IMG/VR virus record: IMGVR_UViG_3300048548_000657 | Coordinates: 1-39,313 of that record | Source of the DNA: a virus | Direction: 5' to 3' (one strand) | DNA length: 39,313 nt | Notes under the pieces: model-generated | Database searches by the model: none | What the model was told of the DNA's origin: nothing | Seen by the model: only the letters and a program-made list of their open reading frames with translations | Shown here: positions 1,441 to 15,505 of the stretch, one piece after another | Layout: every line of letters starts with the position of its first letter | Numbering within the stretch: position 1 is the stretch's first letter | Translations under genes and position numbers: made by a program

Positions 1441-1982
1441 TCTTCTACATCATAATGACAAGTACACGCTATAAACTGCTTGTCAGTTCTTCTAATTGCT
1501 TTCTGCATAGCGTAGCTACCGATCTTTGCCACATTTCTATCTACGACAGATGTAAATTCGTCAAAAGCGAACATATTTGGAGCTTCTAACAATGCTCTAG
1601 CAAGCTCTACACGCATTTTTTCGCCATTACTTAATACATGATACGGTTTTAACCATGATGGTGGGCTTGAAAACCCTACCGCATTCAATGTTTTACATAT
1701 TTCTGTCATTGAAACGCTTTCGGGCATGTCATCGACCACAGCGGTGGCCGTAAATTTATGATTTTCCGTTATGTAATCACCAAAAAGCTCTTTTAAAATC
1801 GTTGTTTTACCTGTCCCACTAGCTCCCACGATTAATCCGATTGACCATTTTTCGGGTAATGCAATTGAGCCTGTAAAACGCTCTACAATCTTTTTGCTCT
1901 GTAGATCATACTTACCGATTACAGATTGAACCCGAAAAGAATCCTCGGGCTCGCTTTCTCTTACAATGTCAAAATCTTGCAC
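1290..1982 (-). CDS. ABC-type ATPase, COG2401-like, ATPase half of the split fusion
   Basis: A soluble ABC ATPase with Walker A GASGTGKTT (residues 53-61), signature LSNGEKMRVELARA (117-130), Walker B NMFAFDEF (136-143) and H-loop histidine at about 176 in CHYDVEEW. There are no membrane segments. The conserved EWLQPDWVF end of the domain is followed by MRLKKK, encoded by an A9 run, after which the annotated frame runs on for 30 low-complexity residues (TTDRQSESKSSMHKQESKS). Those residues are probably the unshifted tail, because the -1 frame holds the acetyltransferase expected at this point. The start overlaps the end of the ParB-like gene by 22 bp. ParB-like plus ABC-GNAT is a recurrent phage and plasmid gene pair of unknown job. 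Confidence 0.85.
   Translation of the reverse strand: MQDFDIVRESEPEDSFRVQSVIGKYDLQSKKIVERFTGSIALPEKWSIGLIVGASGTGKTTILKELFGDYITENHKFTATAVVDDMPESVSMTEICKTLNAVGFSSPPSWLKPYHVLSNGEKMRVELARALLEAPNMFAFDEFTSVVDRNVAKIGSYAMQKAIRRTDKQFIACTCHYDVEEWLQPDWVFCTNSMRLKKKLPTTDRQSESKSSMHKQESKSYGTSLLATTI
1386..1394 (-). other. A9 homopolymer, candidate -1 frameshift or transcript-slippage site
   Basis: On the coding strand the sequence is CTG AAA AAA AAA CTC. A -1 slip gives CTG AAA AAA AAA ACT CCC and enters the acetyltransferase frame just after the end of the ATPase domain. One added A, by polymerase slippage or as an assembly error, would have the same effect. Confidence 0.6.
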
Positions 1983-2545
1983 TCATAGCCCTCCGCACAC
2001 AATTCTCTGTATAGCTTTTCCTGTTGCTGTTCGTTTTTGCACTTAATTTCCAACGCAAAGTATTCACCTAGATTGTCCGACAAGTCATCCGACTCTGTGT
2101 CTTGATGAAACTCGCTCATAAGCTTTTCCAAGCTGTTATCGTCAAAGCCTGTTACATCTAGATCAATTTCGCCTGTATCTAGCTGTTCGATCATGTCTTT
2201 TAACGATGCACGATCTATTTCCGCAAGCTCTGCGATTCTATTGTCAGCTATAAGATCAGCCCACTCTTGAGCTTCGTTTTCGTAATCTTGATAACTAACA
2301 GGGACTTGCTGTAGCCCTAAATGCTTTGCAGTTTCTAATCTTCCATGACCACGAACAATAAACCCGCTTAGATTACTTACAACTATCGGCAATCTCCAAC
2401 CTTGAAATCTAATAATTTTACCAAGTAGCTTTATTTGCTTTTCGTCATGTGTGTTTGGATTTCTTGGATTTGGGATAACTTCGTCAATGTTTACGAGTTT
2501 CTCGCTTGTATGATTTATTATTGGTTGTTGCTCGTTGTTATCCAT
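1961..2545 (-). CDS. ParB/Srx-like domain protein
   Basis: 194 residues. The N-terminal part holds a ParB/sulfiredoxin-like fold: VIPNPRNPNTHDEKQI (about 23-38), then VRGHGRLETAKHLG (64-77), which corresponds to the GxHRxxA-type nucleotide-binding motif, and DNRIAELAE (101-109). The C-terminal half is acidic and ends in a small alpha/beta segment. There is no DNA-binding helix-turn-helix of the plasmid ParB type, and no ParA is present, so partition is unlikely. The family occurs in phages next to COG2401-like ABC-acetyltransferase genes or DNA methylases, as here. Its stop overlaps the ATPase start, so they should be cotranslated. A ParB-type CTPase/NTPase or a nuclease activity is possible. 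Confidence 0.85.
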   Translation of the reverse strand: MDNNEQQPIINHTSEKLVNIDEVIPNPRNPNTHDEKQIKLLGKIIRFQGWRLPIVVSNLSGFIVRGHGRLETAKHLGLQQVPVSYQDYENEAQEWADLIADNRIAELAEIDRASLKDMIEQLDTGEIDLDVTGFDDNSLEKLMSEFHQDTESDDLSDNLGEYFALEIKCKNEQQQEKLYRELCAEGYECKILTL

Positions 2546-2557
2546 ATTTAAAAAAAA

Positions 2558-2956
2558 TTACTTACTGTAATCCTGTGCCATAATTGTCTTTAGCATATTA
2601 TTTTCCACCCATAAATCGTGCTCTGTTTCTGATAGCTGTCTTCCGTCTAAATATATTTTATTGCCGTCTTCTGTCTGCTCGTAACGCACTTCACACCCTC
2701 CGCTTTTGTCATGTATTGCTATAAAGTGCATCATACCTAAAGCCACTTCTGCATTTGGCAAATGATTACGCTTTACGATCCATTCGTGACATTGATTCCA
2801 ATTCTTATCTAAGAATCTCGCAAGATCAGCCATTCGTGCGTCACCACGATCTATTACTCGCTGTGTTTTATCTAAAATTGCTTGCAGTCGCATCTCGTAT
2901 AGATTTATGCGAGACATCGCACTTGTCAATCCCTTTAATATTTTGATCCGAGCCAT
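2558..2956 (-). CDS. Lambda-repressor-type HTH protein
   Basis: 132 residues. Residues about 42-75, ARMADLARFLDKNWNQCHEW and the following IVKRNHLPN, look like a phage HTH: a first helix (MADLARFLD), a turn, and a recognition helix ending in W, followed by a helix around EVALGMMHFI. The first 13 residues (MARIKILKGLTSA) overlap the upstream glutamine amidotransferase by 22 bp and may not be translated; a second ATG lies at 2917. It sits in the operon that starts at promoter A and is a candidate local regulator. The target is unknown. Cro-like repression of the dyad promoters is possible but not shown. Confidence 0.7.
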   Translation of the reverse strand: MARIKILKGLTSAMSRINLYEMRLQAILDKTQRVIDRGDARMADLARFLDKNWNQCHEWIVKRNHLPNAEVALGMMHFIAIHDKSGGCEVRYEQTEDGNKIYLDGRQLSETEHDLWVENNMLKTIMAQDYSK

Positions 2957-3615
2957 GATGAAAAATCTCCCTGTGTTGCTTGTGGTTTATATGGTAAGAA
3001 GCTGTGTCTTCTAGCTGTAAATTTTGAGGGCTTCCACCTCATGTTAGAGAACTTGCAACCCTCGTAGCTTTCCCAATCTCCGTAAAATGTAGCGGTCTTT
3101 TTCTTGCACTTGCTCATATACAAAGATCGCACTCTTTTATGATTTGGGTGCTTGTCTGATATATTAGAAAGCCATGCTGTAGATAAAGATGATCCTACTG
3201 TCTGTGCCATTGCTCTAGTATCTGATAAGCTACCCTTGAGTGCAGGCAATTTTAACAGCTTGCGAACCACTTCGTAGCTTTGCTCCCAATTCAACCAAGT
3301 TCCGTTAGTCATTAGAATATCCGAAGCTTCGTAGTCTAGCCATGTTTCTGCTTTTGCTGTGCATGGAAATGGATGACAAAGCTTATCTGATACACCGCCC
3401 GCTGTAGCGTATCGAAAGTGTAAGGCGATGGGTCCGTCTGTATTGCGTAGCGTTTTCTTTACATAGTCTAAAGAAACTCCCTTGCTTACTGAAAACATTT
3501 CTCTTGATCCTTGCGTTACGATTCCGATTCCGTGTGGATTTGCTTTTTCGCAAAGCTCTAAAGTTTTTGAGCTTGGGCGACTTCCCGCACATGGGCTAAA
3601 TATTATTACACACAT
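2935..3615 (-). CDS. Class II glutamine amidotransferase-like Ntn hydrolase
   Basis: 226 residues. The protein begins Met-Cys, and Cys2 would be the N-terminal nucleophile once Met is removed, as in class II glutamine amidotransferases. The usual landmarks follow: NPHGIG (26-31), ALHFRYATAGG (64-74), HPFP (81-84) and LMTNGTW (101-107), which stands where HNGxI is found in the family. Such domains release ammonia from glutamine for a partner ligase. The adjacent upstream gene is an amidoligase, and a gamma-glutamylcyclotransferase lies 1.7 kb away. Genomic surveys by Iyer, Aravind and colleagues described this combination as a peptide-modification set. The start is preceded by AAC-rich leader DNA rather than a Shine-Dalgarno. 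Confidence 0.8.
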   Translation of the reverse strand: MCVIIFSPCAGSRPSSKTLELCEKANPHGIGIVTQGSREMFSVSKGVSLDYVKKTLRNTDGPIALHFRYATAGGVSDKLCHPFPCTAKAETWLDYEASDILMTNGTWLNWEQSYEVVRKLLKLPALKGSLSDTRAMAQTVGSSLSTAWLSNISDKHPNHKRVRSLYMSKCKKKTATFYGDWESYEGCKFSNMRWKPSKFTARRHSFLPYKPQATQGDFSSWLGSKY

Positions 3616-3657
3616 TGTTTTATTTTGTTAGTTGTTATTGTTAGTTGTTAACTGACC

Positions 3658-4641
3658 TTACACGAAGCGTGTAAGATCAAGAGTTCCGTTAGAGCGATTA
3701 ACTGCTCTGCGAATGTTTGTAGCAAACTTCTTAGCCATCTTGCGCCCGATGCTAAACATAGCTCTTTTGTTTTCTACGAAAGTTGGAAACTGATTAACAA
3801 GAGCATGAAACTTATTTTTGTTCGATCCAAGATTTCTTACAAATGTATCGAAAGCAATGTCGCCTTTGTCAGCAGTTTTATGCTTACCATCCCAAGCGGT
3901 TCGCTTGTTGGTCATACCTGCATGAGCACAGATAAAAGCAGTAAGCAAGTGCATTAAAACTTTATTGTAGTTACAAGTTCCTGCGAATGCACGAAACTCA
4001 ATAGTAGCTTTGCTTGATTGTACTCCGTTGCTACGAGTGCGATGAGTATTTAAGAATGTGAACTTATCGTAATCAAACATAGGGACTCTATTGTTTCTTG
4101 CTTCTTGCTCTGCAAGATGCTTGGAAACATTTGGTTTAGCGTAGTTATGTTTCAAGTAGCGATAAGCACTTCCGTTTTGTGCGAAGATTGTTGTTTTGAT
4201 GCTGTTAGCAAATTTCATTGTACGAAGGACGGTCTCGATAGCTTGGTCGATGTTGTCACCTTCGGTCATTGCTTGTAATCCGATGTGAATGTGAAGTCCG
4301 CAAGAGCGATCTACGATAGCTCCTTTAGCATCTAACCATTTGAAGAATCTTACTACATTCTTGAGTCCTTCTTCACCTTTAAGAATGCGGGATGTAAATT
4401 CGATTCCGTGAAAGTCACGCTTGCGGGAAATTGTTGAATCGTATCCTGCTCTCCATTCTGTGATTGCGTTTCCTTCAAGATCATTGATGTGATTCATGTC
4501 GATCATGTTTTCTTCTCTCCAATTGTAGGAACTAACTTCGATTCCGTATTGACGAGCAAGATGCTTTGGGAACATGCATTCGATTTCGATTCCGAAAGTG
4601 AGGTTTTGAAGAAGTTGAAGAGCTTGTGTGTGATTTTTCAT
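3658..4641 (-). CDS. Amidoligase (glutamine synthetase/GCS-like COOH-NH2 ligase, Amidoligase_2 type)
   Basis: 327 residues. It shows the pattern of the GS-fold amidoligases: TFGIEIE (15-21) as the first metal-binding strand, GYDSTIS (66-72), GIEFTSRI (79-86), CGLHIHIG (114-121) supplying the metal-binding histidines, and TIEFRAFAGT (213-222). Members form amide bonds between a carboxylate and an amine, using ATP and a glutamate-like substrate. The natural substrate here is unknown; peptide, cell-wall or protein targets have been proposed for the family. It is the first gene after promoter A (4696-4724), which has a dyad operator. The leader ends CTAACACAAAATG. Together with the glutamine amidotransferase downstream it forms a compact two-enzyme unit. 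Confidence 0.88.
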   Translation of the reverse strand: MKNHTQALQLLQNLTFGIEIECMFPKHLARQYGIEVSSYNWREENMIDMNHINDLEGNAITEWRAGYDSTISRKRDFHGIEFTSRILKGEEGLKNVVRFFKWLDAKGAIVDRSCGLHIHIGLQAMTEGDNIDQAIETVLRTMKFANSIKTTIFAQNGSAYRYLKHNYAKPNVSKHLAEQEARNNRVPMFDYDKFTFLNTHRTRSNGVQSSKATIEFRAFAGTCNYNKVLMHLLTAFICAHAGMTNKRTAWDGKHKTADKGDIAFDTFVRNLGSNKNKFHALVNQFPTFVENKRAMFSIGRKMAKKFATNIRRAVNRSNGTLDLTRFV

Positions 4642-4695
4642 TTTGTGTTAGATTTAGTATTTAAGATTAAAGTTATAATTAAGATTATGTTTAGA

Positions 4696-4724
4696 ATAAT
4701 ATGCGAAGAATCGCATATGAGCAA
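4696..4724 (-). promoter_or_regulatory. Promoter A with dyad operator
   Basis: On the minus strand, -35 TTGCTC (4719-4724) lies 17 bp from -10 TATTAT (4696-4701). The spacer and the edge of the -10 hold a perfect dyad, ATGCGA-N4-TCGCAT (4701-4716). Two very similar elements occur at 6644-6671 and 8465-8492. Downstream, CATAATCTTAATTA and an AAATCTAACACAA leader are shared with the other copies. It drives the amidoligase operon. Confidence 0.75.
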
Positions 4725-4865
4725 GGGTTAACCCAAGAAATCGCCTTTTTGAGCAAAAGCGGGAATGTCGCACCAATGCTAAGACTCCCGACTTTCTAAA
4801 AATTAAATTGGAAAAAAGTTTAAAAAGACCGAAAAAAATCGGGAAAAATTACTCTTATATATAGC
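4725..4865. other. Intergenic DNA upstream of promoter A with a degraded rusA-end-like stretch
   Basis: No open frame is convincing. On the minus strand it contains GAAAGTCGGG, GCATTGG and ATTCCCGCTT in the same order as the 3' end of the RusA gene (8524-8961), which lies directly upstream of promoter C. This suggests the promoter cassette was copied with a little flanking rusA sequence that has since decayed. Confidence 0.4.
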
Positions 4866-4904
4866 TAAAAAAAACCCCCTAGACCTAACACAATCTAGAG
4901 GGTT
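4866..4904 (-). terminator. Intrinsic terminator with leader-complementary loop
   Basis: On the minus strand an 11-bp stem, AACCCTCTAGA with TCTAGGGGGTT and one imperfect pair, is followed by a run of eight T. The 10-nt loop is TTGTGTTAGG. It ends the operon that runs from promoter B through the gene at 5012-5224. The loop is perfectly complementary to the CTAACACAA leader found before many of this phage's start codons. Confidence 0.85.
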
Positions 4905-4970
4905 GCAAGAGCTTTAGATATATCACTTGGATTTGTTGCCCAAGCTAATCGTTATTGCTTATAGCGTTCA
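4866..4970 (-). ncRNA. Candidate small RNA with anti-leader hairpin loop
   Basis: About 107 non-coding bases lie between the stop of the 5012-5224 gene and the terminator, longer than most gaps here. A perfect TATAAT on the minus strand (4977-4982) would start an RNA at about 4970. The upstream -35 is weak (TTTCAG or TCAGAC). Such an RNA would end in the terminator hairpin, whose loop UUGUGUUAG can pair with CUAACACAA in the leaders of at least six genes. It could also be produced as a processed 3' UTR. No known RNA family was recognised. Confidence 0.35.
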
Positions 4971-5011
4971 CCAATAATTATAAAACGCCTGCTTGCTTTG
5001 TCTGAAACAAA

Positions 5012-5224
5012 TTAATCTAGTCGAGCACTTAGCTCCTCAAATTGATCCTTATCAATATTGTGCACTCGCTTAAAATATCTTTGAGACTCAATATAGGAGT
5101 AATTGTTTTCGTAGCGTAACCAATCAAGGGTCTTACTAAATTCTTCCAATGTTATAATTTCGTTTTCGGTAGTTTCTCTAATCTCTCCCGCTGTGGTGGA
5201 TTTTTTAGCTTTTTCTTTTTTCAT
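5012..5224 (-). CDS. Small hypothetical protein
   Basis: 70 residues from ATG 5224, beginning MKKEKAKKS. An upstream ATG at 5272 is in frame but would overlap the cyclotransferase gene and adds a non-conserved-looking stretch. The start at 5224 lies behind an A-rich leader, which is common in this operon. A lysine-rich head precedes an acidic helical region (ENEIITLEEFSKTLDWLRYE) and a likely helical tail. It is the last protein before the terminator at 4866-4904. No family was recognised. Confidence 0.65.
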   Translation of the reverse strand: MKKEKAKKSTTAGEIRETTENEIITLEEFSKTLDWLRYENNYSYIESQRYFKRVHNIDKDQFEELSARLD

Positions 5225-5261
5225 AATTTTACTTTTGCTTGTTACATATAAGATGCTTTGT

Positions 5262-5717
5262 CTACTTATCAAAGCTGTTCACGATGTTAGCTTTTGATGT
5301 GAACCATGGGCATCCATTGTGCGTTTTGCTTGTCATGCTTCTTTCAGTTCTCATAAAATAAATCCATGCTCTGCATGTCATTGGGTAATCGTTTCCAATA
5401 TCTACACGAATATTAATCTGCTTTCTGCGATACCAACTTGGATGCCCTTCTAGCTGATCTATTCTTGCAAGTGCTTCGTCATCTACTTTGTAAAATTCTC
5501 CCTGTATCATTGACCCTTTGACAAGCTCTAATGGATAACCTGCATCTCCACGATAAGCTTTGTCTGATTCATACACATAGGGAATCCCATGTCGTAGCAT
5601 TATGTAGTTATTCCATGTTTCTGCTTTTCCTACATACTCTTGATCTTCTAGTAAGTAGTGATTTGAAAAATCTTTTTTAAGCGTTCCGTATACAAATAAA
5701 TGTTTTGTGTTACTCAT
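5262..5717 (-). CDS. Gamma-glutamylcyclotransferase/AIG2-like protein
   Basis: 151 residues, about the normal length for the AIG2/GGCT family. It shows LFVYGTLKK (7-15), the glycine-rich substrate-binding loop, then GDAGYP (57-62), IQGEFYKV (71-78) and IDQLEGHPSWYRR (86-98). The Glu in QLEG (residue 90) stands at the place of the catalytic acid. These enzymes release 5-oxoproline from gamma-glutamyl amines and peptides. With an amidoligase and a class II amidotransferase in the next operon, it would be the activity that trims or reverses gamma-glutamyl linkage; that is inference. Its ATG lies within the last codons of a 25-residue membrane peptide (8-nt overlap). Confidence 0.88.
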   Translation of the reverse strand: MSNTKHLFVYGTLKKDFSNHYLLEDQEYVGKAETWNNYIMLRHGIPYVYESDKAYRGDAGYPLELVKGSMIQGEFYKVDDEALARIDQLEGHPSWYRRKQINIRVDIGNDYPMTCRAWIYFMRTERSMTSKTHNGCPWFTSKANIVNSFDK

Positions 5718-6412: not shown

Positions 6413-6601
6413 TTATTTTTGTAAGAGCTTTTCAAACCCTCTTTCGATTCTTTCGATCAAAAATTCTTGATGTGCGTAAAGTCCAAACTCATCACATACA
6501 AAGCTAAACTTTTCTTGCTCTTGACTCCACTCTTCTGCTTGTTGGCGTGTGATAAGAATTTCGTCGCTTTTGGTTTTGATTAATAATGTGTCGTTTTTCA
6601 T
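6413..6601 (-). CDS. Small acidic hypothetical protein
   Basis: 62 residues: a short beta strand (TLLIKTKSDEILI), then RQQAEEWSQEQEKFSFVCDE, and a helical acidic end (FLIERIERGFEKLL). It is the first gene after promoter B, about 40 nt downstream of the likely transcript start, behind AAATCTAACACAATG. No family was recognised. Confidence 0.65.
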   Translation of the reverse strand: MKNDTLLIKTKSDEILITRQQAEEWSQEQEKFSFVCDEFGLYAHQEFLIERIERGFEKLLQK

Positions 6602-6643
6602 TGTGTTAGATTTTTAAGATTAATAATTAAGATTATGTAAACC

Positions 6644-6671
6644 ATAGTATACGAAGCTTCGCATAACACAA
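6644..6671 (-). promoter_or_regulatory. Promoter B with dyad operator
   Basis: On the minus strand, -35 TTGTGT (6666-6671) and -10 TACTAT (6644-6649) are 16 bp apart. The near-perfect dyad ATGCGAAGCTTCGTAT (6649-6664) fills the spacer. The block from about 6625 to 6664 is identical to that at promoter C. It drives the operon 6601 to 5012, which ends at the terminator 4866-4904. Confidence 0.78.
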
Positions 6672-6706
6672 GGATAAAAACCATTATTTTGGCGATTTTT
6701 ATTTTT

Positions 6707-8391: not shown

Positions 8392-8464
8392 TGTGTTAGT
8401 CTCCTGTGTTGTTTTGGTTATTGTGTTAGATTTTTTGGTGTTAGTAATTAAGATTATGTAAACC

Positions 8465-8492
8465 ATAGTATACGAAGCTTCGCATATTACAA
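8465..8492 (-). promoter_or_regulatory. Promoter C with dyad operator
   Basis: On the minus strand, -35 TTGTAA (8487-8492), a 16-bp spacer and -10 TACTAT (8465-8470). The dyad ATGCGAAGCTTCGTAT (8470-8485) lies between them, the same as in promoter B. The identical block runs from about 8446 to 8485. It heads the operon 8391 to 6707. Confidence 0.78.
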
Positions 8493-8523
8493 GGGTAAAC
8501 TTATCTTTCTTTAAAAAAAATTT

Positions 8524-14425: not shown

Positions 14426-15505
14426 CTAGCTTTTGGTGTCACTTTGGTGACATCTTTCCCCTGCTTCAAAAGTATATAGCGGTGTGTGTTTTTGTCTTAA
14501 ATGCCCTTGGCAAACTCCTTCGGGTTCGTGATATGCATTAACTACAACGAAATTATCCCATAATTGTTCGTCGCCCTCTCCGCGTTTCCTAATTACATGG
14601 TCACAAATCGCATGAGTTGTAACACACATATTTAGTCCGCTTGGCTTCCATCTATTCCAACCTAAGTACAGGTCTTGAGTTCCTTTGCCTTCGTAGCCAT
14701 CAAAGTGTGCCATCGCTAAAGCTTTTTCACTTAATAGCGTGCAACCCATTCCTACCCAATCTGTGGGCACAATTGCACCCTTACCAATTGCGGGATATGC
14801 ATAGTCCATCCATCCGCGTTGTCGCCACTCTTTACCATTCAATTCATAGACATTACCTTTAGGCGGAAATTGCTTAATTTGTTCATCTAAATCTCGTATT
14901 TCTTCTATTAACTCTTGTGCTTTGTTTTTTTCTGTTTCTTGTGAGATTTTTTTCTGTAAATCTTTGTGCTTTTTTAACACTTCTTTAGGCACTTCTCTTT
15001 CGCTTAGTTTAATATCTTCTTCTATCTGTCGATTATATGTGCCTCGCCCACCCAAAAAGGGACCTCCTCCTTGACTTGGGTATGTACACATTGCGACATC
15101 GTAATAACCATTGTCAAAGTTTAGCACATCCATTGAAACACTTAAGGCATTGTAAGGCACTAGGACATCGCTTTCAATACTCCAAAAGTGGCTAGAGCGT
15201 ATTCTTCTTGCTTCGCTGAGTGCTTCACTTTGCATTTGTGCGATAAGTAGCTGTGCATCTTCTTTGTAGTTACGAAGCTTGTCGTCATGTACGGGTAGCG
15301 GTATCAACTCAAAGTCCCATCCGCTTGGCAACTGCTCGGCTATGTATTTTTGTGAAGCAAGTTTGATCTCCTCCGATTCATCGCCAATGAACAAAACCTT
15401 CCCACCTATTTCAGCGGAGTAAGCGAGTGAAGAAGCTAAACGCCTACCAAAGTTCGGCAGGGCGTATGTGTATCGTTTAGTGGCATAGGTAGATATAGTA
15501 ATCAT
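14426..15505 (-). CDS. GT-A-type glycosyltransferase, possible conversion gene
   Basis: 359 residues. The N-terminal half reads like a GT-A fold: ITISTYATKRYTYALPNF at the start, GGKVLFIGDE, then RIRSSHFWSIESDVLVPYNA (101-120), where ESD stands at the DxD metal and sugar-nucleotide position. A charged helical insert (about 165-215) precedes a second half with DWVGMGCTLLS and THAICDHVIRKRG, a late acceptor and metal-binding region. It follows the tail genes and ends next to attP, the usual place for genes that alter the lysogen surface. Modifying a tail fibre or host glycan are both possible. Its last codons include the second TGGTGTCAC repeat. Confidence 0.65.
   Translation of the reverse strand: MITISTYATKRYTYALPNFGRRLASSLAYSAEIGGKVLFIGDESEEIKLASQKYIAEQLPSGWDFELIPLPVHDDKLRNYKEDAQLLIAQMQSEALSEARRIRSSHFWSIESDVLVPYNALSVSMDVLNFDNGYYDVAMCTYPSQGGGPFLGGRGTYNRQIEEDIKLSEREVPKEVLKKHKDLQKKISQETEKNKAQELIEEIRDLDEQIKQFPPKGNVYELNGKEWRQRGWMDYAYPAIGKGAIVPTDWVGMGCTLLSEKALAMAHFDGYEGKGTQDLYLGWNRWKPSGLNMCVTTHAICDHVIRKRGEGDEQLWDNFVVVNAYHEPEGVCQGHLRQKHTPLYTFEAGERCHQSDTKS
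14434..14458. repeat. Direct repeat with dyad, glycosyltransferase-side copy
   Basis: TGGTGTCACTTTGGTGACAT plus CTTTC, matching 14226-14250 at 23 of 25 bases. It lies in the last codons of the glycosyltransferase gene (HQSDTKS). It retains the TGTCAC...GTGACA dyad. Confidence 0.7.

Follow-up and report, generated by a model that had tools for sequence, protein, structure and literature searches.

Amidoligases, class II glutamine amidotransferases (GATs) and gamma-glutamylcyclotransferases (GGCTs) were reportedly first predicted to make and trim amide linkages together in Iyer 2009. In RIO-1-like podoviruses, these genes belong to a 'peptidoglycan modification cassette', in which synthesis is assigned to amidoligases and ATP-grasp enzymes and degradation to GGCT and GAT; the cassette is conserved in phiEco32, LUZ24, PaP3 and others (PMC5498523). 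The name, as cassette or module, is used in PMC5498523 and PMC11945000, both citing Hardies 2013. The gene set is also described in the LUZ24-like phage UFV-P2 (PMC3890496), in Clostridium and Terrisporobacter prophages (PMC11318856, PMC11253131), in OM43 phages (PMC10580990) and in Arthrobacter phages of cluster AL, the cluster of phage Waltz (PMC5513430). In the parts of these papers that were available, the descriptions include no biochemical test, show no change of peptidoglycan and establish no substrate. The DNA considered here, called the window, is IMG/VR record IMGVR_UViG_3300048548_000657, positions 1 to 39,313 (39,313 nt, full length). It carries an amidoligase (3658-4641), a GAT (2935-3615) and a GGCT (5262-5717), all on the minus strand.

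The three enzymes are intact, conserved, clustered and regulated alike. The window probably contains a reduced phage module for amide ligation and trimming. An earlier reading of this DNA, referred to as the original prediction, had placed three enzymes acting on glutamine or gamma-glutamyl bonds at 2935-5717; the three open reading frames (ORFs) are found there and their families are supported. Its link to the proposal of Iyer, Aravind and others is accurate, as that proposal is cited in later papers (PMC10580990, PMC11253131). The view that this may be a poorly described phage modification system does not stand: the same genes are already published in many phages, mostly as a suspected peptidoglycan modification cassette or module. 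The gene set is a kind of system already known, and the new observations are modest.

The amidoligase (327 aa) matches PF12224 (Amidoligase_2; E=1e-13, 52.1 bits for a cut-off of 22) and PHROG 2443 (amidoligase; 2.7e-17). Residues invariant in 31 relatives: G17, E19, E21, D68, E81, S84, G115, H117, H119, R161, N198, E215 and R217. The AlphaFold2 model (pLDDT 92) has a fold like that of glutamine synthetase (GS; Z 13.8) and of the carboxylate-amine ligase YbdK (Z 13.6), and carries E-x-E (E19/E21), H-x-H (H117/H119) and E-x-R (E215/R217), positions that correspond to the metal and phosphate ligands of glutamine synthetase. By residues and modelled fold, the protein is a true GS-fold Amidoligase_2 enzyme, predicted to be an ATP-dependent carboxylate-amine ligase forming amides. 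The amidoligase tree was a quick tree; the nearest cellular amidoligases are found in metagenome-assembled genomes of Verrucomicrobiota, Lentisphaerota, Planctomycetota and Armatimonadota.

The GAT (226 aa) was examined by alignment, profile and fold because searches of Pfam (0 families), NCBIfam and PHROG (no strong match) with the protein alone had missed it. The families named in the original prediction were recovered in Pfam for the amidoligase and the GGCT and not for the GAT itself. GATase_6 is matched by 22 of 28 aligned relatives. Those relatives share invariant C2, G31, H66, R68, G73, H81, P82, N104, G105 and D132 (T71: almost invariant), that is, a nucleophilic Cys directly after the initial Met and the pocket residues R68, N104-G105 and D132 of class II enzymes. 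A seven-sequence profile, window included, matches human GFAT, GlmS and PurF in the PDB (E down to 4e-8), and aligns H-x-R-x-A-T, N-G and D-T of the GAT with the known glutamine pocket (GFAT: H-R-W-A-T, N-G, T-D-T). The AlphaFold model (pLDDT 85) has the Ntn-hydrolase glutaminase fold; nearest structures: E. coli GlmS glutaminase (Z 14.3 over 186 residues), GFAT (13.9) and EgtC (13.0). Since these residues and this fold are present, the missing Pfam match is read as divergence. The protein has no second catalytic domain and, from sequence and model, is classed as a stand-alone class II (Ntn) GAT. Its tblastn relatives are the GATs of Methylophilales phage MEP402 and of Marvin-like mycobacteriophages, together with proteins of phages C75C1 and MW202828 that carry the annotation 'GGCT' and resemble it in their N-terminal half.

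The third enzyme (151 aa) matches PF06094 (GGACT; E=1e-21, 78 bits for a cut-off of 22.8) and PHROG 2520 (6e-22). The YGTL motif (Y10-G11-T12-L13) and the catalytic Glu (E90) are invariant among its relatives. Among solved structures, its best relatives are mammalian GGACT/A2LD1 (1vkb, 3jub), so that 'gamma-glutamylamine cyclotransferase' (GGACT-like) is a better name than GGCT; it is, by these matches, a gamma-glutamyl cyclotransferase closest to GGACT, predicted to release 5-oxoproline.

The motifs quoted in the original prediction (amidoligase: TFGIEIE, CGLHIHIG, TIEFRAFAGT; GAT: Cys2; GGCT: YGTLK, QLEG) are correct and conserved, catalytic residues are retained in all three alignments, and the structure prediction proposed there gave models that match glutamine synthetase (amidoligase) and GlmS (GAT). 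Against the near relative L002, dN/dS is 0.11 (GAT), 0.25 (amidoligase) and 0.28 (GGACT). These low ratios indicate that all three genes are maintained under purifying selection.

The genes had been assigned to two operons under the same operator class, and both parts of this assignment hold: an 18-bp palindrome precedes the amidoligase-GAT operon and the operon containing GGACT (ORFs 6601 to 5012). The palindrome, TATGCGAAG-NN-TCGCATA and variants, is present at 4700, 6648 and 8469; written as TATGCGAAGNNTCGCATA, it occurs at the same three positions with at most 1 mismatch. The whole search gave 10 matches (both strands, weaker sites counted), for a mean of 0.32 in shuffled sequences. The first copy (4700-4717) precedes the amidoligase start by about 60 bp and is set within the spacer of a promoter-like sequence (minus strand: TTGCTC at 4719-4724, 17-bp spacer, TATTAT at 4696-4701); the second (6648-6665) is upstream of the GGACT operon; the third (8469-8486) is upstream of a further operon of small unknown genes. 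Each copy stands between a TTG-type -35-like hexamer and a TATTAT or TACTAT -10-like hexamer. The sites are kept in L002, including that of the amidoligase. In L013, whose amidoligase is about 50% identical, an equivalent GCGAAGTTTCGC stands at the same distance (about 60 bp) ahead of the amidoligase gene, the arrangement there being TTGACA-TATATGCGAAGTTTCG-CATAAT. The palindrome resembles an operator through which a repressor would control early promoters; promoters under such control point to gene activity early in the lytic cycle. The three promoter regions (4639-4740, 6599-6690, 8400-8520) share a leader extending beyond the palindrome, CATAATCTTAATTA ... AAATCTAACACA, and several starts in them have no obvious Shine-Dalgarno sequence.

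Between the two operons, a terminator-like hairpin (4873-4904, minus strand; 13 pairs and a T-run) is the best site of a consensus scan of the region that found 8 sites for 4.6 expected. A small ORF between GGACT and the amidoligase (5012-5272, minus strand; 86 aa, shortened to about 69 aa if an internal ATG is the start) is conserved in L002; it has no Pfam match and a weak PHROG match (0.15). A 132-aa ORF (2558-2956, minus strand) overlaps the 3' end of the GAT gene by 22 bp and is probably the next gene of the amidoligase-GAT operon and at most a candidate member of the module.

Linkage was examined in 80 viral loci obtained by scanning IMG/VR with the amidoligase alignment; partners were sought within 6 kb with profiles built in this analysis. 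GAT was found in 35 loci, GGCT in 39, both in 8 and either in 66. Nearly all partner matches (74 of 77) are downstream on the same strand, the median gap being 113 bp where the partner is GAT and 266 bp where it is GGCT. C75C1 (L006) and MW202828 (L007; amidoligase match weak, 6e-4) have GAT and GGCT as one fused gene, and L029 has them side by side. The functional linkage proposed for the three enzymes is supported by this co-occurrence, strand bias and fusion. The presence of GGACT in an operon other than that of the amidoligase and GAT would suit three unrelated accessory genes that are neighbours by chance; the repeated co-occurrence in independent phage lineages, the strong bias of strand and order and the gene fusions make this very improbable, and chance neighbourhood was ruled out on these grounds. 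An anti-phage defence system was also rejected: no PADLOC model matches the three proteins. Public annotation of the fused proteins (L006, 6001-6897; L007, 6001-7218) mentions GGCT only, the N-terminal class II GAT domain being overlooked. Among contigs of bacterial genomes, amidoligase-GAT pairs occur in Verrucomicrobiota, Planctomycetota and Prevotellaceae, and amidoligase-GGCT pairs in Bacillota; many of these contigs are perhaps prophages.

GAT and GGCT appear to replace each other as partner of the amidoligase. Near the amidoligase, both are found in 5 cases, GAT only in 29, GGCT only in 30 and neither in 17 (Fisher p=8e-6); over whole records (n=37), GAT is found in 16, GGCT in 19 and both in 7. 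This exclusion is a lead, not a result, because about 6 independent comparisons are available on the tree: when relatedness is allowed for, GGCT changes in the opposite direction in 3.4 of these pairs and in the same direction in 0.1, with a median p of 0.25. As far as the literature search shows, the exclusion had not been noticed previously. The clade of the window (window, L002, L013, L015) is among the minority with both enzymes.

The reactions, the order of steps and the substrate are proposed from family knowledge, on the basis of the enzyme families, catalytic residues and co-regulation observed. With ATP, the amidoligase would convert a carboxylate to an acyl phosphate and then join it to an amine or ammonia; the likeliest carboxylate is the gamma-carboxyl group of glutamate or of a glutamyl peptide. 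The N-terminal Cys of the GAT would attack glutamine or a gamma-glutamyl compound at its amide bond, releasing glutamate and the ammonia or amine used by the ligase. GGACT would take the gamma-glutamyl group off the amine in the form of 5-oxoproline and so trim or undo the product. The leading guess for the substrate, a tentative one, is the stem peptide of peptidoglycan; alternatives: a small-molecule amine or a protein.

Several points weigh against a ligation-and-trimming module. GGACT is not in the amidoligase-GAT operon. Most related phages carry just one of GAT and GGCT, so that they are not necessarily two steps of one pathway that requires both. The GAT, standing alone, may act as a hydrolase instead of supplying ammonia. 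The mechanism proposed here draws on the sequences and predicted structures of candidate enzymes.

Peptidoglycan could be modified so as to block superinfection, unusual amide links of the stem peptide being built and trimmed and the surface thereby altered for other phages. This is the published inference for the same gene set in LUZ24, RIO-1 and phiEco32 cassettes (PMC5498523, PMC11945000, PMC11253131, PMC10580990), and the three enzymes of the window are the part shared with those cassettes; in the parts of the papers available, it is given as inference only. The rest of the cassette was sought in the window. COOH-NH2 ligase (PF14395) is absent from the 39-kb record, which is possibly incomplete (the control, that of Pseudomonas phage NV1, was found); RimK-type ATP-grasp (PF08443) gave no match, the NV1 positive control being also below the cut-off, which makes it a weak control. 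A full LUZ24/RIO-1 cassette is unsupported, since the COOH-NH2 ligase is absent from the record. In addition, an operator in the promoter spacer suggests genes that are off in the lysogen, the very state in which excluding superinfection would bring the greatest benefit. Superinfection blocking by wall modification is possible but doubtful.

Another explanation is a transient gamma-glutamylation (protecting-group) cycle: an amine would receive gamma-glutamate through the amidoligase and lose it again through GAT or GGACT, the two removers being interchangeable. Precedents are EgtA/EgtC in the synthesis of ergothioneine and BtrJ/BtrG in that of butirosin. In favour are the match of the GAT model to the Ntn gamma-glutamyl hydrolase EgtC, nearly as good as that to GlmS, and the exclusion of GAT and GGCT, near the amidoligase and over whole records; however, the exclusion loses significance when relatedness is allowed for, the fusions and triads indicate that GAT and GGCT can work together, and the sequence relatives of the GAT score higher against GlmS than against EgtC. 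Such a cycle is rather unlikely. The missing COOH-NH2 ligase, the GGACT subtype and the likeness of GAT to EgtC nonetheless leave room for simple gamma-glutamylation and deglutamylation as opposed to multi-linkage modification of the wall. In its most specific form, a reversible gamma-glutamylation switch, the GAT would be an EgtC-like gamma-glutamyl hydrolase interchangeable with GGACT, phages would have one of the two, both, or the two fused, and the target, a molecule of the host or the phage, would be modified transiently in early infection; this form is unlikely.

The enzymes could also be products of auxiliary metabolic genes that supply the host or the phage through the metabolism of nitrogen, glutathione or amines, as proposed for Phage-ZRK32 (PMC10945688). 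In the available part of that report, the same set, there of four enzymes, comprises GAT, amidoligase and gamma-glutamylcyclotransferase, as in the window, plus glutathione synthase; it is read as nitrogen metabolism, in an extrachromosomal chronic phage that stimulates growth in nitrate or ammonium, and no single-gene test is reported there. For amidoligases of this family, the predicted substrates are peptides or secondary metabolites, and the genes of the window sit amid small early phage genes; a metabolic role is decidedly unlikely. The reduced amide-ligation-and-trimming module, with its substrate left as a tentative guess, is the preferred reading.

Other features of the window concern the phage itself. 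It had been called temperate: an integrase was found (phrog_1, 2e-18), which makes a temperate life style likely, and no repressor was identified. Terminase matches are all below 60% identity (about 25% among the matches listed), Verrucomicrobia phage P8625 included. An ABC ATPase ORF (1290-1982) and a GNAT acetyltransferase ORF (904-1440), both on the minus strand, lie in different frames and overlap at a run of nine A (A9, about 1384-1393). PHROG 11143 (357 aa) covers the two as one protein, and both halves are in one reading frame in L026, L033, L038, L055 and L096; the split is also found in L002 and L004, the A9 run being read in the window and in L002. These sequences suggest an ABC-acetyltransferase fusion made by programmed frameshifting or transcriptional slippage. 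The five loci with the one-frame homologs had been selected by their amidoligase; ABC-GNAT and amidoligase may travel together. A gene for a ParB-like domain protein (PHROG 498/620; 1961-2545, minus strand) is directly upstream of the ABC-GNAT gene. A 359-aa protein (14426-15505, minus strand), the last in the run of structural genes, has no PHROG family and no Pfam match over the cut-off.

The association of amidoligase, GAT and GGCT spans phages of very different hosts, and the question worth pursuing is the substrate of the module. With three genes under regulated promoters of its own, the compact version lends itself to expression and testing more readily than seven-gene cassettes do, and could therefore help to decide between modification of the cell wall, of a metabolite or of a protein. 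The LUZ24-like and RIO-1-like cassettes (Pseudomonas phages NV1 and UFV-P2; Pseudoalteromonas phage PSA-HP1) have amidoligase, class II GAT and GGCT as in the window, and in addition an ATP-grasp enzyme and a COOH-NH2 ligase, the latter absent from the window (NV1 annotation: COOH-NH2 ligase, amidoligase, GAT, ATP-grasp, GGCT). In mycobacteriophage Marvin (gp105-106), Methylophilales phage MEP402 and a Christensenellales phage (IMGVR 15666929), the amidoligase adjoins a GAT of the same kind; these differ from the window in having no GGCT within the stretch examined. Phage C75C1 (OQ984151) has, like the window, an amidoligase followed by GAT and GGCT, which in this case are fused in one 298-aa protein annotated as GGCT alone. 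Arthrobacter phage Waltz (gp94-96) differs in its amidoligase (24-26% identity), in having adjacent genes and in a GAT with a longer C-terminus (314 aa); it has the same GGACT - amidoligase - GAT order as the window, on the same strand and within 4.2 kb.

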